Part shown: in pieces, positions 1 through 12,199 of the stretch
Layout: each line of letters opens with the position of its first letter
How positions within the stretch are numbered: the stretch's first letter is position 1
Assembly (NCBI GenBank): GCA_018262455.1
Contig: JAGSPR010000185.1
Location: 1-12,199, forward strand
Origin: Deltaproteobacteria bacterium
Lineage (GTDB): Bacteria; Myxococcota; Polyangia; Haliangiales; Haliangiaceae
Direction: 5' to 3'
Length of the DNA stretch: 12,199 nucleotides
Program-made: the position numbers and the translations under genes
Notes under the pieces: model-generated
What the model was told of the DNA's origin: nothing
Seen by the model: only the letters and a program-made list of their open reading frames with translations
Databases searched by the model: none

Positions 1-277
1 CACGCGCGGCCGGGCTGCCAGCCGGCGGCACGAACCGGCCCTTGGCACAGGTCTCGATGAGGTACTCGAGGATGGCGCCTGACTCGGCGAGCGTCGCGTT
101 GCCGTCTACAAGGACGGGCGACTTGCCGAGCGGATGGATCGCCTGGAGCGACTTCGGCGCGAGCATCGTCTTGGGATCGCGTTCGTACTTCACGATCTCG
201 TACGGCTGCTCGAGCTCTTCGAGCAGCCACAGCACGCGCTGCGATCGCGAGTTGTTGAGATGATGAATGGTGATCAC
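1..277 (-). CDS. Glutathione S-transferase, N-terminal part (truncated by window edge)
   Basis: Reading the minus strand from a GTG at 277 gives 92 codons that run off the window at base 1. The protein begins (M)ITIHHLNNSRSQRVLWLLEE, the thioredoxin-fold N-terminal domain of a soluble glutathione S-transferase. Visible hallmarks are the SRSQR segment after the first strand (Ser10/Ser12 are candidate activating residues), the KSPVL segment with the cis-proline (Pro54) and the glutathione-binding ESGAI motif (Glu65-Ser66). The family conjugates glutathione to electrophiles in the cytoplasm. The helical C-terminal domain lies outside the window. The start is fixed because an in-frame stop (bases 292-290) lies five codons upstream and no ATG is available. 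There is no Shine-Dalgarno sequence. It is divergent from the OmpA-like lipoprotein gene, with 77 bases between them. The family call is firm; substrate and subclass are unknown. Confidence 0.9.
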   Translation of the reverse strand, partial: MITIHHLNNSRSQRVLWLLEELEQPYEIVKYERDPKTMLAPKSLQAIHPLGKSPVLVDGNATLAESGAILEYLIETCAKGRFVPPAGSPAAR

Positions 278-283
278 GAACGC

Positions 284-289
284 GCTGTA
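284..289 (-). promoter_or_regulatory. Candidate -10 element (TACAGC) for a leaderless GST mRNA
   Basis: On the minus strand TACAGC ends six bases before the GTG start at 277, so transcription would begin at or next to the start codon. The context TGTGATACAGC is AT-richer than its surroundings. No convincing -35 hexamer is visible. The same spacing is found before five other genes here. The remaining bases of the 278-354 intergenic region must hold the divergent promoter of the lipoprotein gene, which I cannot pinpoint. Confidence 0.45.
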
Positions 290-354
290 TCACATTGGTC
301 AGAGAGCGGTCGCGATCGCTTGCCTACCCCGCAGGTGCGATCGAGGATGCCGTC

Positions 355-870
355 ATGAGAGGTCTGATACTCGGGGTGATGCTGGGTGCCACAGGGTGCT
401 CCCTGTTCACGGTCAAGGAGCAGCCGTTTCCGGCGCTCGAGATCCAGGCCAAGCGCCCGCCGCCGGGGCCCGATCGCGTGGTGCTGTTGCCATCGACGAT
501 CGTGATCTCGGACAAGGTGCAGTTCGAGCTCGGCAAGGCCGACGTGCTGCCGATCTCGCATTCGTTGCTGGACGAGGTCGTGAAGGTGATGAAGGACAAC
601 CCGCAGATCGAGCAGGTCCAGATCGAAGGCCACACCGATGCGACGGGCTCCGCGGACATCAACAAGAAGCTGTCGCAGCAACGCGCCGAGTCAGTGATGA
701 AATACGTCACCAGCAAGGGCATCAACGCCAAGCGGCTCGTCGCCAAGGGTTTTGGCCCCGAGGTCCCGATCGCGAGCAACGACGATGCAGCCGGTCAGGA
801 GATGAACCGGCGCGTCGAGTTCAACATCGTGAAGCAGGGTCCGATCAAGACCATCGTGAAGGACCAGTAG
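355..870 (+). CDS. OmpA/Pal-like peptidoglycan-binding lipoprotein
   Basis: 171 residues. The N-terminus MRGLILGVMLGATGC is a short lipoprotein signal peptide with Cys15 as the probable lipidated residue (lipobox ATGC). After a short linker comes an OmpA C-terminal domain from about residue 50 to the end. It has the hallmark GHTD segment, the N...LSQQRAESV helix and the closing NRRVEF; the Asp of GHTD and the Arg of NRR are the residues that bind diaminopimelate in this family. The product should be lipid-anchored, probably in the outer membrane, and tether it to peptidoglycan, as Pal does. The start is ATG 355, preceded by GAGG (343-346) at eight bases; an open frame further upstream has no signal sequence. 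It heads a unit with the next two genes (gap 2 bases, then a 1-base overlap). No tol genes are adjacent, so it may be an accessory paralogue rather than Pal itself. Confidence 0.9.
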   Translation: MRGLILGVMLGATGCSLFTVKEQPFPALEIQAKRPPPGPDRVVLLPSTIVISDKVQFELGKADVLPISHSLLDEVVKVMKDNPQIEQVQIEGHTDATGSADINKKLSQQRAESVMKYVTSKGINAKRLVAKGFGPEVPIASNDDAAGQEMNRRVEFNIVKQGPIKTIVKDQ

Positions 871-872
871 CC

Positions 873-1241
873 ATGACCAAGCTCATCGCATCGTCGATCG
901 TCATCGCGACCCTGGTCGCGGGCGCCGGCTGCAAGACCGGCAGCCCCGAGGTCCGCAAGAGCATCATCGCCCAGATGCAGACCACCAAGCCGCGGCTCGA
1001 TGGCTGCTACCAGATCGCGCTCGCCCGCAACCGCAAGCTGCCCAACGGGATGATCACCGTCGAGCTGATCGCCGAGGCCGGCACGGGCCGATTCAAGAAC
1101 GTGCTGATCCGACGCGACGAGATCCAGGATCCGCAGGTCCGCCAGTGCGTGATCACCGAGGTCGGCCGCCTCAAGCTCGACAAGCCACCCAGCTCCAACA
1201 CGCAGATCCCCTACGCGTTCCGATTCACGGCCGTGAACTGA
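873..1241 (+). CDS. Small lipoprotein with AgmX/PglI-type (TonB-like) C-terminal domain
   Basis: 122 residues. The signal peptide runs from MTKLIASS to GAGC, with Cys20 as the probable lipidation site. Residues ~28-120 resemble the C-terminal domain of myxobacterial AgmX/PglI proteins: a helix ending in LDGCYQIAL, a K-L-P-N-G turn, the strand MITVELIAEAGTGRF, then QVRQCVITEV and a strand rich in hydrophobics near the C-terminus. The paired cysteines in DGCY and RQCV are typical of the family and may form a disulfide in the periplasm. The fold is TonB-like; in AgmX/PglI it is linked to envelope and gliding machinery, but a role here is inference. The start ATG 873 has AAGGA at 859-863 (nine bases away) and lies two bases after the upstream stop. 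Its stop overlaps the next start (TGATG). Most AgmX-type domains I know are part of long Ala/Gly-rich or FHA proteins, so a free-standing lipoprotein form is a reduced version. Confidence 0.72.
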   Translation: MTKLIASSIVIATLVAGAGCKTGSPEVRKSIIAQMQTTKPRLDGCYQIALARNRKLPNGMITVELIAEAGTGRFKNVLIRRDEIQDPQVRQCVITEVGRLKLDKPPSSNTQIPYAFRFTAVN

Positions 1242-1696
1242 TGGCAGCCAAGGTCCCTACCCGCTCGGTGACCCACGAGGACCTCGAGCTGCGTCGCCTG
1301 TCGTCGATGGGGCTCGAGCTCGAGGAGATCGCCGAGGGCGACGTGGTCGCGCTGAGGCCGATGATGGAGCTGGCCGAGGACCGCGGGCGTCCGACGAGCC
1401 ACTACCTCGCCGCGATCCCGCTCGCCACCGAGCTGCGCGTCGACTCCGGTCCCGCGCCCGTGACCGTCCGGGTATGCGCCGGGACCTGCCAGCGCTGGGG
1501 CGCGCTCGACCTGCTCGATCACCTCGTCGCGCGCTGGGAAAAGACCCCCAACTTCGCGATCACGCCGGTGACCTGTCTCGACCGCTGCGACCTCGCCCCC
1601 GCCTGCGAGGTCCACGGCGCCCACGGCGTGCTCGTGCTCGCGCCGTCGACCGCGGCCTCGCTCGATGAGGCGCTCGACGGCCTCACGACTGCGTAG
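1241..1696 (+). CDS. Thioredoxin-fold [2Fe-2S] ferredoxin-like protein
   Basis: 151 residues, no signal peptide, so probably cytoplasmic. Residues 1-70 are acidic and of no clear family. Residues ~74-150 match the thioredoxin-like ferredoxin fold of NuoE/HoxE subunits: VRVCAGTCQRWGALDLLDHL, a strand, then TCLDRCDLAPACEVHG, which parallels the NuoE segment C-L-G-x-C-x-x-A-P. The four likely cluster ligands are Cys79, Cys83, Cys112 and Cys116; Cys122 is an extra. NuoE spacing is Cx4C...Cx3C, whereas here the first pair is Cx3C, one residue shorter. The product probably carries a [2Fe-2S] cluster and acts in electron transfer, but no partner dehydrogenase or hydrogenase gene is nearby. The start codon overlaps the previous stop by one base and has no Shine-Dalgarno sequence, so translation is probably coupled. 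Its company of two envelope lipoproteins is odd for a ferredoxin. Confidence 0.75.
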   Translation: MAAKVPTRSVTHEDLELRRLSSMGLELEEIAEGDVVALRPMMELAEDRGRPTSHYLAAIPLATELRVDSGPAPVTVRVCAGTCQRWGALDLLDHLVARWEKTPNFAITPVTCLDRCDLAPACEVHGAHGVLVLAPSTAASLDEALDGLTTA

Positions 1697-1715
1697 CCGC
1701 CCTGCCGGCCCTCGG

Positions 1716-1734
1716 CCCCCCCCCGCAACGGGGG
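1716..1734 (+). terminator. C9 tract and short G/C hairpin after the lipoprotein-ferredoxin unit
   Basis: A run of nine C (1716-1724), the loop GCAAC and five G (1730-1734) can form a five-pair all-GC hairpin 20 bases after the ferredoxin stop. No U-tract follows, so intrinsic termination would be weak. It could be a transcript 3' end or merely a slippery homopolymer. This is the only hairpin I see in the 140-base gap. Confidence 0.3.
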
Positions 1735-1740
1735 ACCCTC

Positions 1741-1768
1741 GTCGCAGCGGGGCGTCGCACGTGTCGCA
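1741..1768. repeat. Three GTCGCA repeats upstream of the transporter operon
   Basis: GTCGCA occurs at 1741-1746, 1754-1759 and 1763-1768, the latter two flanking a CACGTG core. They lie roughly 70-95 bases before the proposed transcription start of the transporter operon. A regulator site is possible, but the words are short and the surrounding DNA is GC-rich. Confidence 0.3.
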
Positions 1769-1780
1769 GTGTCTCAACGA

Positions 1781-1797
1781 TCCGCAGCAGTCCGCAG
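1781..1797. promoter_or_regulatory. Direct repeat TCCGCAG, one helical turn apart, upstream of the transporter promoter
   Basis: TCCGCAG occurs at 1781-1787 and again at 1791-1797, exactly ten bases apart, so both copies face the same side of the helix. They sit about 40-56 bases before the predicted start of transcription at 1837, adjoining the -35 zone. This is where activators such as OmpR-type response regulators bind. No regulator gene is in the window, so the function is inference. Confidence 0.35.
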
Positions 1798-1822
1798 GCT
1801 GGCCCTCGCACGGGGTTGGCGC

Positions 1823-1828
1823 TAGCCT
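1823..1828 (+). promoter_or_regulatory. Candidate -10 element (TAGCCT) for the transporter operon
   Basis: TAGCCT (TAnnnT) ends eight bases before GTG 1837. There is no Shine-Dalgarno sequence for either GTG 1837 or the earlier TTG 1816, so a leaderless mRNA beginning at the GTG is the simplest reading. If this is the -10 box, TTG 1816 lies upstream of the transcript and cannot be the start. No clear -35 box is visible. Confidence 0.45.
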
Positions 1829-1836
1829 CGCGTGAC

Positions 1837-2550
1837 GTGCTGCGCCTCTCCAAGGTCAACAAGTACTACCGGGTCGGCACGCACAGCCTGCACGTGCTGC
1901 GCGACATCGACGTCGAAGTCGCGGACGGCGAGTTCGTCGCGATCATGGGCGCGTCCGGATCGGGCAAGTCCACGCTACTCAACATCCTCGGCATCCTCGA
2001 CGAGTACGACTCGGGCGAGTACTGGCTGGGCGACACGCTGATCCGATCGCTCAGCGAGAGCCGCGCGGCCCATTACAGGAACCGGTTCATCGGGTTCGTG
2101 TTCCAGTCGTTCAACCTGCTGCCGTTCAAGACCGCGCTCGAGAACGTCGCGCTGCCGCTGTATTACCAGGGCGTCACGCGTCGCAAGCGCAACCAGATCG
2201 CAGGGCAGTACCTCGAACGCGTCGGGCTGCGCGACTGGGCCGACCACCTGCCTTCCGAGATGTCGGGCGGTCAGAAGCAGCGTGTCGCGATCGCGCGCGC
2301 GCTGATCGGCAAGCCTCGGCTGATCCTCGCCGACGAGCCGACCGGCGCGCTCGACAGCGAGACCAGCAAGCAGATCATGGATCTGCTCTCGGAGATCCAC
2401 CAGACCGGGATCACCGTGCTCGTCGTGACCCACGATTCAGAGGTCGCCGCGCGGACCCAGCGCACGATCCGGCTGCGCGACGGCAAGGTGATGACCGCGC
2501 ACGAGCTAGCCGTCAGCGCGAGCCACCCCGGCATGGCGGCGGCGACTTGA
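1837..2550 (+). CDS. ABC transporter ATP-binding protein, MacB/LolD type
   Basis: 237 residues from GTG 1837. All nucleotide-binding motifs are intact (residue numbers from this start): Walker A GASGSGKST near 38-46, Q-loop Gln90 in FQSFNLLPF, signature MSGGQ near 142-146 (Met in place of the usual Leu), Walker B LILADE near 162-167, D-loop ALDS, and the switch His199 in VTHD. The tyrosine in KYYRV can stack on the adenine. Length and sequence fit the stand-alone ATPases that power FtsX-fold permeases (LolD, the ATPase half of MacB), which drive mechanotransmission across the envelope rather than membrane transport proper. The frame is open back to TTG 1816, adding seven residues, but family members begin at this point and a -10-like TAGCCT lies between. 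It is first in the operon with two permeases and an adaptor. The stop TGA overlaps an ATG (TGATG) that opens only a 20-codon frame. Confidence 0.93.
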   Translation: MLRLSKVNKYYRVGTHSLHVLRDIDVEVADGEFVAIMGASGSGKSTLLNILGILDEYDSGEYWLGDTLIRSLSESRAAHYRNRFIGFVFQSFNLLPFKTALENVALPLYYQGVTRRKRNQIAGQYLERVGLRDWADHLPSEMSGGQKQRVAIARALIGKPRLILADEPTGALDSETSKQIMDLLSEIHQTGITVLVVTHDSEVAARTQRTIRLRDGKVMTAHELAVSASHPGMAAAT

Positions 2551-2605
2551 TGCCGACGAGCGAGTCCAGGAGCTCGGTGCGCGCCTCGGCGCGGAGGCGT
2601 CTCCA

Positions 2606-2612
<7 letters not shown>
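2550..2612 (+). other. Possible 20-codon coupling ORF between ATPase and permease 1
   Basis: The ATG at 2550 overlaps the ATPase stop as TGATG and opens a frame of 20 codons (MPTSESRSSVRASARRRLQC) ending with TGA 2610-2612, seven bases past the permease GTG at 2606. Its third positions are G or C in 19 of 20 codons, as in real genes here. It may carry ribosomes across the gap to the permease start. The Ser/Arg-rich product could equally be an accidental reading. Confidence 0.2.
2593..2597 (+). promoter_or_regulatory. Strong ribosome binding site deciding the permease 1 start
   Basis: GGAGG lies eight bases before GTG 2606, the best Shine-Dalgarno sequence in the window. The later in-frame ATGs at 2708 and 2726 have none. 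It therefore supports the long form of the permease with its extra N-terminal membrane segment. Confidence 0.65.
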
Positions 2613-3982
<1,370 letters not shown>

Positions 3983-3994
3983 GGCGTCCTGCCC

Positions 3995-5248
3995 ATGTTC
4001 GACCTCGATAAGTGGAAAGAGATCTGGGCGACCCTCCGTAGCAACAAGCTGCGAACGTTTCTCACCGCGTTCGGAGTGTTCTGGGGAATCCTGATGTTGA
4101 TGCTGATGCTGTCGTTCGGCTCGAGCATCCAGACCGGGATGCAGCGCCAGATGAGCGGCATGGCCACGAACCTGTTGTTCGTGTGGGGCCAGCAGACATC
4201 GGAAAGCTACGACGGCCTCCCGCCCGGACGCCAGGTCGCGTTCAACATCGATGACATCGAGCTACTTCGCAAGCTGAAGACGATCGAGTGGCTCGCCCCG
4301 CGCCTCCAGCTGGGCGGGTGGATGAACAACTTCACAGTCAGCTACGAGAGCAAGGTTGGCTCGTTCACCGTGATGGGCGACTACCCCGAGCTCAAGCACA
4401 TCGTGGCATTCCAGTACGAGGCGGGGCGGTTCATCAACGAGCGAGACATCGCCGAGCAGCGCAAGGTGGCCGTGATCGGGGCCGCCGTCCGCGATCAGCT
4501 CTGGGGACCCGACGTCAATCCGATCGGGACGTTCGTCAAGATCAGCGGCGTGTACTTCCAGGTCGTCGGCGTGACCAAGACGCTGCGCTCGGGCCAGATG
4601 GGAGATCGCGATGCCAACACGATCTTCGTGCCGTTCACGACGCTGCGCACCGCGTTCAACATCGGCACGCGCGTCGGGTTCTTCGCGTTGACGGCGAAGC
4701 CGGGTACCGACGGACCCGAACTCGAGCGCCAGGTCCGCGAGACGCTCAACCATCACCATCGCGTGGCACCGACCGATCAGCTCGCGATCGGCTCGTTCAA
4801 CATGTTCGAGAAGTTCGCGGGGTTCCAGACCTTCTTGCTGGTACTCAGGCTCCTCAGCTGGGTGGTCGGCGGGGCGACACTGTTCGCCGGCGTGATCGGA
4901 GTTTCGAACATCATGCTCATCACGGTGAAGGAACGCACCAAGGAGATCGGCGTGCGCAAGGCGCTCGGAGCCAACCCGCTGTCGATCATCTCGATGGTCA
5001 TGAAGGAATCGATCGCGCTGACGCTGATCGCCGGCCTGATCGGCGTGGCCGTGGGGGTGGGCATCATGGCACTCGCCGACCTCGGGCTCTCCAACGCCAA
5101 GGAGCTGCCGTTCGGCCCGCCCGAGATCGCGCTCTCGACCGTGATGGCCGCCGTCGCCATCCTCGTGGTCTCCGGCGCGATCGCCGGCATCATGCCTGCT
5201 TCCCATGCCGCCTCGATCAAGCCGATCGAGGCCCTACGCGCCGAGTGA
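3995..5248 (+). CDS. ABC transporter permease, MacB/FtsX family (permease 2)
   Basis: 417 residues with standard four-helix MacB-permease layout: N-terminal amphipathic segment MFDLDKWKEIWATLRSNKLR, helix ~21-43, periplasmic domain ~45-275 (AGRFINERDIAEQRKVAVIG and NPIGTFVKISGVYFQVVGV are typical), helix ~278-308, coupling loop VKERTKEIGVRKALGANPLS, helices ~330-360 and ~378-400, ending ASIKPIEALRAE. It is related to permease 1 throughout and matches it almost exactly in the coupling loop, which contacts the ATPase. The periplasmic domain should dock to the adaptor encoded next. ATG 3995 is preceded by GAGG at 3981-3984 (ten bases). The adaptor start lies 14 bases after the stop. Two non-identical permeases with a separate ATPase resemble LolCDE in subunit make-up, but the adjoining adaptor gene points to a MacAB-type tripartite exporter. 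Confidence 0.93.
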   Translation: MFDLDKWKEIWATLRSNKLRTFLTAFGVFWGILMLMLMLSFGSSIQTGMQRQMSGMATNLLFVWGQQTSESYDGLPPGRQVAFNIDDIELLRKLKTIEWLAPRLQLGGWMNNFTVSYESKVGSFTVMGDYPELKHIVAFQYEAGRFINERDIAEQRKVAVIGAAVRDQLWGPDVNPIGTFVKISGVYFQVVGVTKTLRSGQMGDRDANTIFVPFTTLRTAFNIGTRVGFFALTAKPGTDGPELERQVRETLNHHHRVAPTDQLAIGSFNMFEKFAGFQTFLLVLRLLSWVVGGATLFAGVIGVSNIMLITVKERTKEIGVRKALGANPLSIISMVMKESIALTLIAGLIGVAVGVGIMALADLGLSNAKELPFGPPEIALSTVMAAVAILVVSGAIAGIMPASHAASIKPIEALRAE

Positions 5249-5262
5249 TCCAGAGGTCTGCC

Positions 5263-6417
5263 ATGAAACGAGTACTCACGTGGTTCCTGTTGCTGCTGGT
5301 CGTGTCCCTGATCGGCCTGGCGTTTGTCTACCTGGTCATGAAGTCGCGGGCGCACCCGGTCATCTATCAGACCGAGACGGCGGAGAAGACCGACATCGTC
5401 AAGAAGACGGTCGCGACCGGATCGATCGTCCCTCGCCGCGAGGTCGAGGTGAAGCCCAAGGTCACGGGCGTGCTCTCGGAGCTCTACGTCGAGCCTGGCA
5501 AGAAGGTGAAGCAGGGCGATCCGCTCGGCAAGATCGCGATCAACCCCGACGCGATGCAGACCAACCAGGCCGAGTCGGGCGTGCGCACCTCGCAGATCGC
5601 CTACGACAACGCCAAGCGAGAGCTCGAGCGTAACGAGGAGCTCTACAAGAAGGGCGTCGTCGCCGATGCCGAGCTCCAGAAGTACCGGACCGAGTTCGCG
5701 CTGCGCAAGCAGGAGCTGGCGACGGCGGGCTCGAGCCTGCAGCTGGTCAAGGAAGGCGCGACCCGGGGCCAGGGCAAAACGTCGTCGTTGATCGTCACCG
5801 CGACCAACGACGGCATGGTCATCGACGTGCCGGTCAAGGTCGGGTTCTCGGTCATCCAGGCCAACAACTTCAACCCCGGCACCACGGTCGCCGTGATCGC
5901 CGACATGGACGACATGATCTTCGAAGGGCGCGTCGACGAGGCCGAGGTGGCGAAGATCAAGGAAGGCATGAAGCTCGCGATCAAGGTCGGCGCGATCGAG
6001 AAGGACAAGCTCGATGGCAAGCTCGAGTACATCTCGCCGAAGGGCAAGCTGATCGACGGCGCGATCCAGTTCGAGATCAAGGCGGCCGTCGCCAAGAAGC
6101 CCGACATGCAGATCCGCGCGAACTACAGCGCGAACGCCGACATCGTGCTCGACGAGAAGAAGCAGGTGCTCGCGATCCGGGAGGCGCTCGTCCAGTACGA
6201 CAATGACAAGCCATTCATCGAGGTCGAGACGACGCCGCAGACGTTCGTCCGCAAGGACGTCAAGCTCGGGCTCTCGGACGGGATCAAGGTCGAGGTGCTC
6301 GAAGGCGTCACGATGACCGACCGGATCAAGATTCCCGACAACGCCGGCCCCGGCGCGCCGGAGATGGGCGGCCCGGGCGGCGGAAAAGGCCCGAAGCCTC
6401 CGACGAAGAAGTCGTAG
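5263..6417 (+). CDS. Periplasmic adaptor (membrane fusion) protein, MacA/HlyD family
   Basis: 384 residues. Residues ~5-25 are an N-terminal membrane anchor without a lipobox. A first lipoyl half (~60-95) contains PKVTGVLSELYVEPGKKVKQ, a helical hairpin follows at ~100-165 (ERNEELYKKGVVADAELQKY), then the second lipoyl half ~175-205 (VTATNDGMVIDVPVKVGFSV), a beta-barrel domain ~210-295 (ADMDDMIFEGRVDEAEVAKI) and a membrane-proximal domain to ~358. The last ~25 residues are a Gly/Pro/Lys tail. In MacA the hairpin reaches an outer-membrane TolC channel; none is encoded in this window. The true start is ATG 5263 with AGAGG at 5252-5256, six bases away; the frame is open far upstream only because of GC-rich shadow sequence over permease 2. 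It is the last gene of the transporter operon. The substrate cannot be read from the sequence. Confidence 0.93.
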   Translation: MKRVLTWFLLLLVVSLIGLAFVYLVMKSRAHPVIYQTETAEKTDIVKKTVATGSIVPRREVEVKPKVTGVLSELYVEPGKKVKQGDPLGKIAINPDAMQTNQAESGVRTSQIAYDNAKRELERNEELYKKGVVADAELQKYRTEFALRKQELATAGSSLQLVKEGATRGQGKTSSLIVTATNDGMVIDVPVKVGFSVIQANNFNPGTTVAVIADMDDMIFEGRVDEAEVAKIKEGMKLAIKVGAIEKDKLDGKLEYISPKGKLIDGAIQFEIKAAVAKKPDMQIRANYSANADIVLDEKKQVLAIREALVQYDNDKPFIEVETTPQTFVRKDVKLGLSDGIKVEVLEGVTMTDRIKIPDNAGPGAPEMGGPGGGKGPKPPTKKS

Positions 6418-6427
6418 TCCTCCAGCG

Positions 6428-6454
6428 CCCCGCCAGCCCCGCCAGCCCCGCCAG
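6428..6454. repeat. Three tandem copies of CCCCGCCAG after the transporter operon
   Basis: The nine-base unit CCCCGCCAG repeats perfectly at 6428-6436, 6437-6445 and 6446-6454, followed by another C5 run. The coding-strand transcript here is rich in C and poor in U and hairpins. The opposite strand has four runs of at least four G within 40 bases. It may be a Rho-utilisation site or a G-quadruplex. The remaining bases up to the phosphatase start hold no hairpin terminator that I can see. Confidence 0.7.
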
Positions 6455-6496
6455 CCGAGCCCCCGAGATCTCCCCGTCGCGCCACGACGAGCGTGC

Positions 6497-6502
6497 TAGC
6501 GT
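6497..6502 (+). promoter_or_regulatory. Candidate -10 element (TAGCGT) for a leaderless ppx/gppA mRNA
   Basis: TAGCGT (TAnnnT) ends seven bases before ATG 6510, with no Shine-Dalgarno sequence. The alternative GTG 6501 overlaps the hexamer and would be untranscribed or at the extreme 5' end, so ATG 6510 is preferred. No -35 box is recognisable. Confidence 0.45.
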
Positions 6503-6509
6503 GCTGGCG

Positions 6510-8108
<1,599 letters not shown>

Positions 8109-8149
8109 CCGTGCTGGCGTTTCCCCGGCAGCCCGCCGTGGCGCCGTGG

Positions 8150-8155
8150 TACTCG
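8150..8155 (+). promoter_or_regulatory. Candidate -10 element (TACTCG) before the M1 peptidase
   Basis: TACTCG ends six bases before ATG 8162. The G-rich stretch directly abutting the ATG is too close to act as a Shine-Dalgarno sequence. On its own this match is weak; it is listed because spacing equals that of three other genes in the window. Confidence 0.3.
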
Positions 8156-8161
8156 GCGGGG

Positions 8162-9856
8162 ATGCGACGTCTGCTCGCGCTGTCTCTCTGTGCCCGTGGG
8201 GCTGCCTGTGGCCTGGCCGCGTGCGGGGGTGAAGACGCGCCCGTCGGCCCCGTGGTCGCGCACGTCACGCATTACGACTACACGTTCGACGTCGACAGCC
8301 GTGCCGCGCACGCGACGGTGACCGCCGCGATCGACGAGCCAGGCAACTGCTTGACGCTGCCGTATCGCGCCGAGGGCCTCGACCCCGCGACGCTCCGGGT
8401 CGACGGCAGGGCGCCCGAGAGTGCGTCGCAAGGTGCCAGCGAGCTCACCCTGTGCGGCGGCGGCCATCCTGCCGGCGAGACGATGACCCTCGAGACAGAC
8501 CTGACGATCCCGATGGAGACGCTGTCGACCAGCCAGGTCGGCTACTCGATCCGCAATGACGCCGAGGGGAACCCGTTCTACTACCTGGTGAGCTGGGTGG
8601 GCGGCTGCGACCAGTTCGGGCCGTGCGATAGCCGGCCCGACAAGTTCGCGACGTACACGTTCCATGTCACGCACGCAGCGACGCTCAAGGCGCGATGCGC
8701 TGGCACGATCACCGAGGTCAGCCCGACCGAGACCCAGTGCGACTTCGTCCACGACGGGGGGCCGACGTACTCGACGTTCGGGGTCGCGGCGTATCCGGCG
8801 TGGACGCAGACCGACAAGGGCATGTGGGGCTCGGCGAAGGTGACGATCTACGATCGCGCGTCGACCACGATCGCTGCCGCGATCGATCCTGCGTACCACG
8901 CAGGCTTCATCACCTTCATGGAGTCGACGTTCGGGCCGTACCCGTTCGGCGACGAGCTGCGCGTGCTCACCGCGCCGACGTACTGGAGCGGCTTCGAGCA
9001 TCCCGGCAATATCGTGCTCGACGACAAGCTCGCGAAGACGCGGTCGTCGTACCTCCACCCGGTGGCGCACGTGCTCGATCACGAGATGGCTCACCAGTGG
9101 GCAGGTGATCAGACGACGATCGCGGACACGTACGACTTCGTGTGGAAGGAGTCGATGGCCGAATACCTCGCGTTCGTGCACGAGGACATGGCCGACCCGC
9201 CAGCCGCGCGCGCGACCGCGAACGCGTGGAAGCTGTTCTCGGCGAACGCGCAGTTCTTCCCCGTGCCGGACGAGAAACCTGCGCTGTTCGACTACTACGG
9301 TGACGTCTACGGGCCCGGACCGATGATCTTGTTTCGCCAGCTCGAGGTGCTGTCCTCGCGCGCCCAGGTGATCGCGGCGCTCCAGAGCGTGCTCGGTACG
9401 CCGCGCGCGCTGTCCGTGAACGAGCTCGTCGCGGCACTCGAAGCCTCGACCGGGCTCTCGCTCGCCGACTATGTGGCCGGATGGATCCACGGAACGGGCG
9501 CGCCCGACTTCCCGAGGATCGCGCTGACCTACACGTCCGCCTCCAGCACGCTGACGGTGAACCAGACCAACCCGAGCAACCGGACCTGCAAGTTCCACGT
9601 GGCGCTCGTCGGTCCCGATCCCGTGGTCGATCGCTTGCTGGTCGAGGTCGATACGTTCCGGAACGGGACCGCTCAGAGTCTTTCCGTCCCCGCTCCTGCC
9701 TTCCCGGTGATGTCGACCGAGCTCGATCCGCTCCACGAGTGCCTGGTCTTCCTGACCAACGCGCCGCGAACGCGCCCACGACGCAACCCCTGGCTCGCGG
9801 ATCCAGCGGGGCACGATGCCCCAGTGGATCGATCGACCTCATCGCCGTTGCCCTAG
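8162..9856 (+). CDS. M1-family zinc metallopeptidase, lipoprotein
   Basis: 564 residues. The start MRRLLALSLCARGAACGLAAC is a lipoprotein signal ending in a perfect lipobox LAAC (Cys21), so the enzyme is predicted to be anchored facing the periplasm or outside. Residues ~35-215 are the N-terminal beta-sandwich. The catalytic domain has HEMAHQW (His307, Glu308, His311) and Glu330, giving HExxH-x18-E, the M1 zinc site. The substrate-binding GAMEN loop is replaced by GFEHPGN (277-283), keeping the glutamate (Glu279). The tyrosine in DVYGPGPMIL lies where the catalytic Tyr is expected. A small beta domain follows from ~455, and the large helical C-terminal domain of aminopeptidase N is absent. 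M1 enzymes remove N-terminal residues from peptides. The last ~31 residues are Arg/Pro-rich, with less GC-biased codons, and look unconserved. GTG 8111 would add 17 residues before the signal and is rejected. Confidence 0.9.
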   Translation: MRRLLALSLCARGAACGLAACGGEDAPVGPVVAHVTHYDYTFDVDSRAAHATVTAAIDEPGNCLTLPYRAEGLDPATLRVDGRAPESASQGASELTLCGGGHPAGETMTLETDLTIPMETLSTSQVGYSIRNDAEGNPFYYLVSWVGGCDQFGPCDSRPDKFATYTFHVTHAATLKARCAGTITEVSPTETQCDFVHDGGPTYSTFGVAAYPAWTQTDKGMWGSAKVTIYDRASTTIAAAIDPAYHAGFITFMESTFGPYPFGDELRVLTAPTYWSGFEHPGNIVLDDKLAKTRSSYLHPVAHVLDHEMAHQWAGDQTTIADTYDFVWKESMAEYLAFVHEDMADPPAARATANAWKLFSANAQFFPVPDEKPALFDYYGDVYGPGPMILFRQLEVLSSRAQVIAALQSVLGTPRALSVNELVAALEASTGLSLADYVAGWIHGTGAPDFPRIALTYTSASSTLTVNQTNPSNRTCKFHVALVGPDPVVDRLLVEVDTFRNGTAQSLSVPAPAFPVMSTELDPLHECLVFLTNAPRTRPRRNPWLADPAGHDAPVDRSTSSPLP

Positions 9857-9870
9857 TCGTTTGCAGGCCG

Positions 9871-9898
9871 CAAAAGGCCCCAACGGCACGGCCTTTTG
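9871..9898. terminator. Inverted repeat, probable terminator between M1 peptidase and Cys-repeat lipoprotein
   Basis: CAAAAGGCC (9871-9879) and GGCCTTTTG (9890-9898) form a perfect nine-pair stem with a ten-base loop, 14 bases after the peptidase stop. The closing U4 gives an intrinsic-terminator shape that could work in both directions. It ends one base before the proposed -10 element of the next gene, so it could instead serve as an operator. Confidence 0.6.
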
Positions 9899-9899
9899 A

Positions 9900-9905
9900 T
9901 ATCGA
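9900..9905 (+). promoter_or_regulatory. Candidate -10 element (TATCGA) for the Cys-repeat lipoprotein
   Basis: TATCGA, inside the palindrome ATCGAT region, ends six bases before ATG 9912, and no Shine-Dalgarno sequence is present. Upstream DNA is the terminator stem, so any -35 contact would fall within the hairpin. None resembles TTGACA. Confidence 0.45.
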
Positions 9906-9911
9906 TGCCGC

Positions 9912-10970
9912 ATGCGCATTGCTTTGAATCTGGTATCTCGGCGCCGTCTCGTGTTGGCGACCATGCTCCTCGCGGTCGCGACCCTGGCGGGCTGCGGCAA
10001 GGGCCTCCCCGGTGGGGGGAGCCTCCCCGGTGGTGACAAGGTCCCCGGCGGTTTGCCTGGTGGCGGCGGTGGCGAGTCCGGGATGGTCGACCCGAACACC
10101 TGCGGTAACTACGCGGGCTCCGAGGCCGGTCGCAGGCTGAAGGCGTTCCTCCAGGCCACCAAGGACCTCGAGGCGCAGACCGAGGAGACCGTCAAGGTCG
10201 TCAAGCAGAGCTGCATCCTCATCGGCAACGAGATCGGGATGACCGAGCTCGACTACAAGGGCGAGACCAAGGACATCTGCGCCACGGTGTACGGCCGCGT
10301 GACCGAGAACCTCAAGGTCGCGTTCAAGTCGAAGGCGGCGCTCAAGATCAAGTACAAGCCGGCGGTGTGCCGCCTCAGCGTTGATGCGACGGCCAAGGCC
10401 GCGGCGGAGTGCGAGGGCAAGGCGTCGGCGGATGTCGGCGCGTCGTGCAGCGGCGTGTGCAACGGCAAGTGCGATGGCACGTGCGCGGGCAAGGCCGGCA
10501 CCGGCGGTTCGGGCGGCGAGTGCAACGGCGAGTGCAAGGGCACCTGCCACGGCACGTGCGAAGGCCACGCGGACGTCAAGGCGTCGGCGCAGTGCAAGGC
10601 GAGCGCAGAGGTTCACGCCTCGGCCGACCTCGAGTGCACCGAGCCCGAGCTCGACATCGCGTTCGACGCCAAGCTCGTCGTCGACAAGGCCAAGGCCGAG
10701 ATGACGATCAAGGGCCTCAAGGCCGGCCTGCCGAAGATCCTGTCGGTCAAGGCGCGCCTCGTGCCACTCAAGCACGCCGTCGAGACGTGGGCGAGCTCGG
10801 CCACCGAGCTGTCGAGCATGGGCATCACGGCCCTCAGCTCGTTCAAGGACCAGGCGACGTGCGTCGGCGGCCAGATCGCCGCCGCTGCGAGCCTGATCTC
10901 GAAGATCAATGCCAACGTGTCGGTCTCGGTCGAGGTCTCGGCCTCGGCGAGCGGCACGGTCGGCGGCTGA
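9912..10970 (+). CDS. Cys-rich lipoprotein with two (CxGx)4 blocks, unknown function
   Basis: 352 residues. A long signal peptide with Arg-rich start ends in the lipobox LAGC (Cys28). Residues 31-56 form a Gly/Pro linker with repeated LPGG words. Residues ~60-165 look helical with Cys64, 101, 123 and 153. The centre holds two blocks of four Cys-x-Gly-x units: Cys179/183/187/191 and Cys204/208/212/216, joined by the nine-residue linker AGTGGSGGE. Ala/Ser/Lys-rich segments follow, then a helical C-terminal part (~250-335, one Cys at 317) and a Val/Ser/Ala tail. Seventeen cysteines in total are unusual for a Gram-negative lipoprotein. They may form disulfides or bind metal; nothing in the sequence decides which. 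I do not recognise a named family. It is a single-gene unit, bounded by terminators on both sides, with a TA hexamer and no Shine-Dalgarno before ATG 9912. Confidence 0.88.
   Translation: MRIALNLVSRRRLVLATMLLAVATLAGCGKGLPGGGSLPGGDKVPGGLPGGGGGESGMVDPNTCGNYAGSEAGRRLKAFLQATKDLEAQTEETVKVVKQSCILIGNEIGMTELDYKGETKDICATVYGRVTENLKVAFKSKAALKIKYKPAVCRLSVDATAKAAAECEGKASADVGASCSGVCNGKCDGTCAGKAGTGGSGGECNGECKGTCHGTCEGHADVKASAQCKASAEVHASADLECTEPELDIAFDAKLVVDKAKAEMTIKGLKAGLPKILSVKARLVPLKHAVETWASSATELSSMGITALSSFKDQATCVGGQIAAAASLISKINANVSVSVEVSASASGTVGG
10446..10568 (+). repeat. Coding repeat: (CxGx)4 - 9-residue linker - (CxGx)4
   Basis: Twelve-base units encode CSGV, CNGK, CDGT, CAGK, then after AGTGGSGGE come CNGE, CKGT, CHGT, CEGH. 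Cys and Gly are invariant in all eight units, with the x positions polar or small. The two blocks align unit for unit, which suggests duplication of a four-unit block. Confidence 0.9.
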
Positions 10971-10979
10971 TCTCCCATA

Positions 10980-10996
10980 CGAGTCGTAGCGACTCG
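10980..10996 (+). other. Small hairpin between stop codon and terminator
   Basis: CGAGTCG-TAG-CGACTCG is a perfect seven-pair inverted repeat nine bases after the lipoprotein stop, followed by another GACTC. It has no U-tract and may protect the 3' end of the mRNA or simply precede the true terminator. Confidence 0.5.
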
Positions 10997-11005
10997 ACTC
11001 GCCTT

Positions 11006-11039
11006 GGGCCAGGTCTTCGGACCTGGCCCTTCGTGTTTT
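11006..11039 (+). terminator. Rho-independent terminator of the Cys-repeat lipoprotein gene
   Basis: GGGCCAGGTC (11006-11015), a TTCG tetraloop and GACCTGGCCC (11020-11029) form a perfect ten-pair stem, followed by TTCGTGTTTT. The UUCG loop closed by C-G is the especially stable form. It is the clearest intrinsic terminator in the window. Confidence 0.92.
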
Positions 11040-11097
11040 CGGGGCAGGCTCGTGTGGTCGGCGGCGGTCGGGGCTGGCGCTGGTGGCCCCTTTGGTG

Positions 11098-11103
11098 TAG
11101 CTA
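11098..11103 (+). promoter_or_regulatory. Candidate -10 element (TAGCTA) before the Gly/Arg-rich gene
   Basis: TAGCTA ends six bases before ATG 11110 and no Shine-Dalgarno sequence is present. The sequence TTGG-T-G-TAGC just upstream resembles TTGG-C-GC-TAGC before the transporter operon. The rest of the 11040-11097 gap is GT-rich with no other feature seen. Confidence 0.45.
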
Positions 11104-11109
11104 GCCCCC

Positions 11110-12199
11110 ATGAAGACGCTCACCGAGTTCTCGACGTTGACCCTGCGCAAGGCTGCAGCTGCCCGCGCGGCGGCCCGCAGCGGGAGAACGGTCACCGATA
11201 GCGAGCTGGCCCAGGCGGCGAGCGAAGACGCGGCCAACAAGGACGCCGTCGCGGCGAGTGAGGCTCCGGCCGACGCTGGCGAAGCCAGCCCCGGCGAGCC
11301 GGGCGAGCTCGGCGACGAGGTCAGCGCCGACGGCTCCAGCGAGCCTGGGGCCGGGGAAGCCGACGCATCGGCGGTTGACGCTGCTGCGCCAGAGGCCGAG
11401 GCCGCCGCGAAGACGCCAGATCCCGCGGTCGAGGCGGTTGCCACCGCGCTTTCGGTGCAGCCCGACCGGGCAGCGCGGCTGCTCGAGGCGCTCGACATCG
11501 TGGGCAACGCGATCGACCAGGTGCGCCTGGTCCGGGTCTATCAGGGTGAGCAAGGCCCGTGGGGCGCGGTGTCGCGTGGCGAGTTCCACTACGTGATCGA
11601 TCGCGTGGGCGGCAAGGCTCGCGGCCGAGCACGCGAGGAGCGCGGCGGTGACCGTGGCGGTCGCAGCGACCGTGGTGGCCGCGGCGGTGGCGGTCCCGGC
11701 GGTGGCGGTGGCGGCGGCGGCGGCGCGTTCGGCGGCCCCGGCGGTGATCGCAAGCCCCGCGGGCTCGGTAGCCTCAAGCACGGCGGTCCCAAGGAAGCGC
11801 CGAAAGAAGATGATCGAGTCGGTCGTGGCGAGATGCCGCGCGCCGGGATTGGCTGGCAGCTCACCGCTTCACCGCCCAGCTTCGGGGGCGGGGCCGGCGG
11901 TGGCCGTGGCGGCCCGCGGCGTGATTCACGAGGGCCGCGTCGTGACGGCGGCGGTCCCGGTGGCCCACGTGGCCCCCGGAGCTTTGGCGGCGGCCCCGGC
12001 GGCGGTGGCCCCGGCGGCGGTGGGCCCGGTGGGCCCGGCGGCTATGGCGGTGGCCCCGGCGGCGATCGACCGCGCGGGCGTGGTCCACGGCCCGAGGGTG
12101 GATATGGTGGCGGCGATCGTGGTCCAAGGCTTGGTGCCGATGGTCAGCCCCTGCCCCCGCGCGAGGCCCGGCCGCCGCGGCCGCCTCAGGAGCCCCGGC
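11110..12199 (+). CDS. Gly/Arg-rich, mostly disordered protein with small conserved-looking core (truncated by window edge)
   Basis: The frame from ATG 11110 stays open for 363 codons to the window end without a stop. Residues 1-30 ([20 protein letters not shown] and on) are a basic Ala-rich helix. Residues ~31-102 are an acidic Ala/Glu/Gly linker. Residues ~103-167 look folded, with [22 protein letters not shown] and [16 protein letters not shown]. From ~168 the protein is Gly/Arg/Pro-rich with repeated RGG, RGPR and GGPGG words, interrupted only by a short island [18 protein letters not shown] (240-257). RGG-type segments in other proteins bind RNA and promote condensates; whether that applies here is inference. 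No signal peptide or membrane segment, so probably cytoplasmic. The MKTLTEFS opening and the EFHYV core recall an uncharacterised family that I associate with myxobacteria, from memory only. Codon use is as GC-rich as its neighbours, supporting a real gene despite low complexity. Confidence 0.8.

Follow-up and report, generated by a model that had tools for sequence, protein, structure and literature searches.

Many genes of a Kofleriaceae-like member of the Myxococcota, represented by a stretch of 12,199 nucleotides (the window), and of its relatives are best explained by extended -10 promoters that adjoin the start codon, and their transcripts are very probably leaderless or nearly leaderless, with 5' ends deduced from the sequence. 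The evidence that transcription would begin at the start codon itself or only a few bases away is strong; the motif, its position, its tie to the arrangement of genes and its conservation among orthologs are observed directly. Conserved TA hexamers would act as -10 elements, often of the form TGnTAnnnT and with no clear -35 box. As the -10 element adjoins the start codon, RNA polymerase would begin at the first base of this codon or a few bases upstream, and since transcription would start there, the mRNA would have no space for a Shine-Dalgarno (SD) sequence. Translation of such an mRNA would rely on leaderless initiation led by the start codon, while genes overlapping an upstream gene would depend on SD sequences instead. 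Where transcription starts and how these mRNAs are translated are both inferred.

TA hexamers in the window

The initial annotation placed a TA hexamer 12 to 14 bases before six of six gene starts, which proved exact (Table 1); gene 11110 has an additional TA at -8. The six other starts that it named (355, 873, 1241, 2606, 3995 and 5263) lack a TA within -15..-11. The extended form TGnTA is present in four of the six hexamers (277, 6510, 8162 and 9912), and the hexamer of 11110 fits neither TGnTA nor TAnnnT. The expected TAnnnT peak was found in the genes of relatives, whereas only two of the six window hexamers (1837 and 6510) match this pattern.

Table 1. Candidate -10 elements upstream of six gene starts in the window
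Feature	Position	Strand	T relative to start codon
Extended -10 box TGATACAGC, GST-like gene start 277	284..292	-	-12
-10 box TAGCCT, ABC transporter ATPase gene start 1837	1823..1828	+	-14
Extended -10 box TGCTAGCGT, Ppx/GppA gene start 6510	6494..6502	+	-13
Extended -10 box TGGTACTCG, peptidase-like lipoprotein gene start 8162	8147..8155	+	-12
Extended -10 box TGATATCGA, lipoprotein gene start 9912	9897..9905	+	-12
TA hexamer TAGCTA, gene start 11110	11098..11103	+	-12

Enrichment of the motif in relatives

The genome-wide positional test proposed earlier was performed on relatives of the window organism, using a motif-free, composition-only gene caller that sets starts independently of TA or SD, and was positive: among 692 pooled leading genes, 247 carry a TA at -15..-11, where 61 are expected. 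Duplicates were removed from this pool and from the gene arrangement counts, as loci L001-L024 overlap genome G001 through L002. TAnnnT occurs at -15..-11 in 78 of 395 leading genes of G001 (11.8 expected), in 32 of 164 leading genes in the overlapping loci L001-L024 (3.2 expected) and in 12/48, 9/39 and 9/56 leading genes of three further family genomes (0.6, 1.0 and 0.4 expected). If any in-frame start within 60 nt is allowed, the count is 225/689 versus 27 to 69 in nine other windows (L002 excluded). Around the TA, both the final T and an upstream TG are enriched in the pooled leading genes, as in a -10 element, and TGnTA is enriched in relatives with a GC content of 68-74%. In G076, a family member with 49% GC whose genes were called with a different codon trainer, the peak is broad and weak (9/42 versus 1.8 expected). 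No TA peak was detected in Cupriavidus and seven sampled phylum genomes; the latter come from a sampled list of 57 and may not all lie outside the class. The class list (116) was also a sample, and those for the family (30) and the order (35) are not marked as such. Whole-genome counts of TGCTAGNNT followed by ATG, made on both strands of seven genomes, were uninformative (matches/reversed-pattern control 27/16, 29/25, 33/32, 14/15, 19/20, 25/6 and 14/14).

It is possible, though doubtful, that the same promoters mostly initiate transcription 1 to 6 nt upstream of the start codon and thereby produce very short leaders. T is indeed common at -15, -14 and -13 (44, 38 and 48 of the 247), and orthologs of gene 1837 retain the TA box at positions from -12 to about -20, as judged by eye. 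However, the pooled TA peak sits at -12 (89 versus 12.3 expected per position), and a purine occurs at T+12 in a fraction of 0.45, 0.28 and 0.46 for T at -13, -14 and -15, respectively. As there is no purine excess at T+12 before the start codon, nothing here speaks against initiation directly at the start codon; the purine test does not indicate a fixed start base. The leaderless reading of the initial annotation is supported by the family-wide enrichment, but its exact placement of the start base is not, as the box is spread over -15..-11; leaders of 1 to 3 nt may occur, and leaderlessness may be approximate.

Conservation in orthologs and choice of start codons

A strict box rule was applied to the upstream regions of orthologs at -16..-11 and in four control windows, leaving out gene 1241. 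Rows with less than 42% identity, an alignment start past residue 40, insufficient length or a position near the locus end were removed beforehand, as were duplicates. The box is present in 6/11 orthologs of 277 (controls 0, 0, 1, 0), 6/15 of 1837 (controls 4, 2, 0, 0), 17/25 of 6510 (controls 8, 0, 3, 0) and 21/24 of 8162 (controls 2, 2, 4, 1). Two of these results count against the leaderless reading: the control window -26..-21 of the ppx gene 6510 contains 8/25 matches, and the box is found in 5/8 orthologs of 355, a gene with an SD sequence according to the initial annotation. Both orthologs found for 11110 (L001 and L019) have a TA at -12 by eye, and neither satisfies the strict rule. 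Among the 14 orthologs of 9912, none has the box at -16..-11 and six have it at -38..-33. Most of these orthologs possess an SD-like leader, and several show the same box followed by an SD leader and ATG; the window copy has apparently lost the SD leader, with the reading frame open. Relatives likewise differ among themselves in the presence of an SD leader before ppx genes. The Ppx/GppA loci L054-L083 from the phylum sample were rejected as ortholog upstream regions because they are too distant (23-34% identity).

The conserved promoters could also be real and the assigned starts too far upstream; translation would then truly start further downstream, behind ordinary leaders. For the window, the motif-free caller reproduced the starts of 873, 1241, 1837, 2606, 3995 and 5263, chose other in-frame starts for 355 (379), 6510 (6501), 8162 (8252) and 9912 (9963), and did not include 277 and 11110 among its genes. 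Three of the six leaderless candidates thus have starts that are not given by composition alone, and the shifts of 8162 and 9912 in particular would suit misplaced starts. However, the ortholog alignments of 6510 and 8162 begin at the originally assigned starts and support them. By inspection, the upstream start of 9912 yields a signal peptide with a lipobox, whereas the downstream start truncates it. The family-wide peak was also seen with motif-free starts, and misplaced starts are an improbable explanation.

Gene arrangement and Shine-Dalgarno sequences

The motif depends on how genes are arranged (control windows: TA, -30..-26; SD, -45..-37). Genes that overlap their upstream neighbour carry the TA box at background level (13/200, control 10) and an SD sequence in 87/200 cases (control 31), while divergent genes have the TA box in 139/375 (control 30) and an SD sequence in 59/375 cases. 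By comparison of overlapping and divergent genes, the box is restricted to genes heading a transcription unit. Genes located 11-25 nt downstream of another gene on the same strand likewise carry it (TA 39/88, control 8; TAnnnT 28/88, control 1) and would thus be heads of transcription units, too. Among the 234 leading genes that carry a TA box, 207 lack an SD 4-mer at -15..-4. Of the 692, 367 have neither TA nor SD, which speaks against the leaderless reading. In the pooled leading genes, the two signals occur together less often than by chance (odds ratio 0.53, P 0.005), which bears out the split by SD that had been part of the proposed check. A check of the 16S anti-SD sequence was unsuccessful, with a match in one of ten genomes that ended at model position 873.

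The fixed distance from the start codon, where the motif takes the place of the SD sequence, might suggest a non-SD ribosome signal on leadered mRNA; AT-rich upstream signals of this kind have been reported for Bacteroidetes in the part of PMC3160421 considered here. Such a signal is very unlikely, however, because overlapping genes, which need translation but no promoter, show only background levels, the final T and the upstream TG resemble a -10 element, and relatives of 9912 have the box in addition to an SD leader. Chance can practically be discarded: the initial annotation selected both the genes and the distance after the fact and the final T is absent from four of six hexamers, but six of six TA at the background probability of 0.082 (the five bases -34..-30 of relatives' leading genes) would occur with a likelihood of ~3e-7, a post hoc figure for the reason given, and the signal persists in the unselected genes of relatives. 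Chance is refuted at the family level; single genes may still be chance.

Divergent pairs

Seven of 187 divergent family pairs (L002 excluded) are 20-29 nt apart, and five of the seven have, by eye, a TA at -15..-11 before each of the two called starts. In pairs 20-23 bp apart, which include the GST/OmpA-like pairs of L014 and L016, the two candidate -10 boxes overlap (by eye). A whole-genome search for shared divergent promoters by a symmetric-gap pattern was dropped because it is confounded by codon phase: TA and ATG share the codon frame there, but not in the off-centre control. The symmetry of -10 elements in bidirectional promoters was reportedly addressed in 2021. It is tempting to speculate, at somewhat less than even chances, that the promoter of Kofleriaceae genes has merged with the start codon to form a unit of ~12-15 bases that replaces the leader in about a quarter of the leading genes, that genes following a neighbour on the same strand at 11-25 nt are often separate leaderless units, and that, in the extreme case, a divergent pair shares a near-symmetrical -10 element in a 20-23 bp gap, both genes being leaderless.

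Comparison with known systems

The initial annotation knew of no description for this kind of organism. This overstates the case, as the computational predictions of Zheng et al. 2011 already included leaderless genes in delta-proteobacteria, in 8 of 33 genomes and at a mean of 15.8% (range 5.7-20.6; Table 2, PMC3160421). Myxococcus, Sorangium, Haliangium and Anaeromyxobacter are absent from the main text of that paper, and the passages considered do not name Kofleriaceae. In the parts considered, it describes TAnnnT in high-GC genomes, delta-proteobacteria included, as found here; however, its TG peak appears in several low-GC genomes, whereas ours occurs at 68-74% GC. In Deinococcus-Thermus, another phylum, TANNNT likewise directly precedes the reading frame and a second gene class has a GGAG-type ribosome site (PMC12340547, in the sections considered). 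The motif was tested experimentally there, whereas the present case rests on sequence evidence, and the word 'extended' is absent from that text, while TGnTA is enriched here. The plasmid pRHL1 of Rhodococcus jostii, an actinobacterial control that is not a chromosome, has TAnnnT at -13/-12, with 9/109 leading genes at -15..-11 (1.8 expected); SD sequences are found in 41/109 of its leading genes versus 65/395 in G001, and the TA distance is more spread in the relatives studied here. In Escherichia coli and Salmonella, bidirectional promoters also contain pseudo-symmetrical -10 sequences that are read both ways, according to the portions considered of PMC12825309 and PMC10268837. Here, in contrast, the putative shared element is no more than about 15 nt away from either start codon, which would leave each transcript with no leader or almost none.

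Implications

Leaderless genes are already known elsewhere, and the family appears to be a further case; it would carry a strongly developed leaderless architecture beyond Actinobacteria and Deinococcus to a little-known family of Gram-negative bacteria. The relatives within Kofleriaceae are represented mostly by metagenome genomes. Gene 9912 offers a natural experiment, with a promoter that relatives combine with an SD leader and that stands without one in the window, and the ppx genes do likewise among relatives. A shared -10 element in a 20-23 bp gap, if true, would be close to the smallest possible promoter arrangement for a divergent pair. Genes 11-25 nt behind a neighbour are normally taken as operon members; if the proposed architecture is true, SD-tuned gene finders would assign wrong starts and predict too many operons in Kofleriaceae genomes.

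Relatives of the window organism and the form of the hexamers

The window has a GC content of 67.7%. Its Ppx/GppA protein has matches with 63-82% identity at 24 loci (L001-L024), whose source metagenome genomes are titled Myxococcales, Kofleriaceae, Deltaproteobacteria or Proteobacteria, and with 25-35% identity at nine more loci from other groups. On the basis of these matches, the window is assigned to a Kofleriaceae-like member of the Myxococcota, and family-level tests of the TA signal were made on relatives of this organism. The initial annotation had placed a TA hexamer 12-14 bases upstream of six start codons lacking a Shine-Dalgarno (SD) sequence, and these positions are exact in the window sequence. 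The TAnnnT form is present in two of the six hexamers and absent from the other four; the extended form TGnTA is found in four. The hexamer of 6510 fits both forms, and that of 11110 fits neither.

TA enrichment upstream of leading genes

Genes were called from codon composition and a start-codon prior, without any upstream motif, and were termed leading if they were divergent, lay at the edge of a contig or followed a same-strand gene at a distance of >50 nt. TAnnnT was scored with its T at -15..-11, and expected counts were derived from positions -45..-21. It precedes 78/395 leading genes in 798 kb of G001, the source genome of L002 (11.8 expected), 32/164 of L001-L024 (3.2 expected) and 12/48, 9/39 and 9/56 in three further family genomes (0.6, 1.0 and 0.4 expected). 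A family member with 49% GC, G076, has 9/42 (1.8 expected) without a sharp peak. The Rhodococcus plasmid used as positive control shows 9/109 vs 1.8 expected, and the Cupriavidus megaplasmid, the negative control, has no excess (2/118 vs 5.2). The positional enrichment anticipated by the initial annotation is thus found in relatives: among 692 pooled leading genes, duplicates removed, TA occurs 44, 38, 48, 89 and 28 times at -15, -14, -13, -12 and -11, with its maximum at -12 and a background of 12.3 per position. When any in-frame start within 60 nt was allowed, a box (TAnnnT or TGnTA) lies 11-15 nt away in 225/689 family leading genes, and nine other 5-nt windows give 27-69; for Cupriavidus and five phylum genomes, the count is 33/380 vs 16-42. 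The box excess amounts to about a quarter of family leading genes.

Nature of the TA signal

Gene arrangement tells a promoter apart from a translation signal, and 1146 family genes were compared for TA at -15..-11 and an SD 4-mer. Genes overlapping the upstream gene have TA in 13/200 (control 10) and SD in 87/200 (control 31). For divergent genes, the counts are 139/375 for TA (control 30) and 59/375 for SD (control 38). Genes that follow a same-strand gene at 0-10, 11-25 and 26-50 nt carry TA in 10/70, 39/88 and 38/96 (controls 2, 8, 12), 11 of the TA at 0-25 nt being upstream stop codons, and those at 51-100, 101-200 and >200 nt in 49/118, 21/112 and 18/66 (controls 9, 6, 4). As TAnnnT precedes 28/88 genes at 11-25 nt (control 1), many operon-looking pairs seem to have a promoter between their two genes. 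Among the 692 leading genes, TA and SD co-occur less often than by chance (odds ratio 0.53, P 0.005). Neither signal is present in 367/692, more than half, whose starts may be miscalled or may use another mode of initiation.

Compared with 159 control sites at -30..-18, 247 sites aligned on TA are enriched in the final T (0.56 vs 0.33), the G before n (0.58 vs 0.41), the T of TG (0.31 vs 0.24) and a T at the presumed first base of a -35 box (0.30 vs 0.21). This composition is that of a putative extended -10 element in which a -35 box is minimal or absent.

Among 187 divergent family pairs, 7 are spaced by 20-29 nt and 8 by 30-39 nt, compared with 0 and 1 of 54 in class genomes, 2 and 1 of 83 in phylum genomes, 0 and 0 of 28 in Cupriavidus and 0 and 0 of 18 in Rhodococcus. 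Visual inspection places TA between -15 and -11 of each called start in five of the seven closest family pairs; in a G005 pair spaced by 22 nt, one TA is exactly 12 from either start. L014 and L016 each have a GST/OmpA-like pair spaced by 23 nt, in which one TA lies, by eye, at -13 from one start codon and at -12 from the other; the window counterpart, 277/355, is spaced by 77 nt. A pattern search aimed at extending these pairs was confounded, and with such small numbers, shared promoters are a lead.

Conservation in orthologs

An ortholog box was defined as TAnnnT or TGnTA whose T lies at -16..-11 relative to an in-frame start close to the aligned one.

Window features and boxes in orthologs of the genes (control windows, in order: -26..-21, -32..-27, -38..-33, -44..-39)
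Feature	Position	Orthologs with box	Controls
GST-like	277(-)	6/11	0, 0, 1, 0
SD gene	355	5/8	
SD gene	873	0/2	
Three GTCGCA units	1741-1768		
ABC transporter ATPase	1837	6/15	4, 2, 0, 0
SD gene	2606	0/8	
SD gene	3995	0/16	
SD gene	5263	0/16	
Ppx/GppA	6510	17/25	8, 0, 3, 0
Peptidase-like lipoprotein	8162	21/24	2, 2, 4, 1
Inverted repeat	9871-9898		
Lipoprotein	9912	0/14	0, 0, 6, 1
	11110	0/2	

The 8162 box is kept in orthologs as distant as about 47% identity. Four 6510 orthologs (L011, L012, L013, L015) have the box farther upstream, together with a purine-rich SD-like leader. By eye, the box of 1837 orthologs ranges from -12 to about -20, and both 11110 orthologs lack the strict box, yet have TA at -12. 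The proposed split between SD and TA-box genes holds for 873, 2606, 3995 and 5263 and fails for 355. The GTCGCA units lie upstream of 1837, several orthologs of which have TGTCGCA-like units at the corresponding site, and are possibly an operator.

In several 9912 relatives, TTGATATCGATG or a close variant is followed by roughly 20-35 nt, including GGGGAGCC, AGGAGCC or similar, and then ATG. In the window, TTTTGATATCGATGCCGC directly precedes ATG, and the frame (352 codons, lipobox present) is still open. By inspection, the window copy appears to have lost its SD leader and become leaderless; we infer that the loss was a deletion. Between the gene ending at 9856 and 9912, the inverted repeat CAAAAGGCC ... 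GGCCTTTTG, terminator-like by eye, extends over the TG of the -10 box of 9912.

Taxonomic breadth and relation to known leaderless genes

In five genomes of the class that belong to other orders (G121, G181, G128, G171, G058; 100 kb apiece), TAnnnT precedes 19/231 leading genes vs 4.8 expected. Seven other phylum-sample genomes (G055, G036, G031, G030, G052, G049, G011; 100 kb apiece) show no excess (14/361 vs 13.0); SD precedes 40-51% of leading genes in six of them and 11/52 in G049. The leaderless signal is strong within the family and weaker across the class, and was not seen in the other sampled genomes. SD counts for leading genes of G121, G181, G128 and G171 (7/50, 10/41, 9/44 and 11/48; 100 kb each) are little above their backgrounds (4, 8, 3 and 9), and weak SD use may therefore be spread wider than the leaderless signal.

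The initial annotation knew of no description of leaderless genes for this kind of organism. For Kofleriaceae and other myxobacteria, none was found among the matches listed, which mostly leave out subscription literature and do not imply absence; for delta-proteobacteria, Zheng et al. 2011 (PMC3160421) report leaderless genes in 8/33 genomes; they also describe TG peaks in several low-GC genomes. According to the StartLink paper (PMC9581028), GeneMarkS-2 predicts that 21.6% of bacterial species have leaderless transcription; these may include myxobacteria.

Taken together, the TA hexamers are real, being exact at six positions and recurring in unselected family genes, and their interpretation as putative -10 boxes of predicted leaderless promoters is well supported at the family level by enrichment, gene arrangement and orthologs. 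Leaderless genes with a TA box are of a known kind; the apparent novelty lies in the family that hosts them, in their extent, in the support drawn from gene arrangement and orthologs, and in the shared divergent promoters that are offered as a lead.
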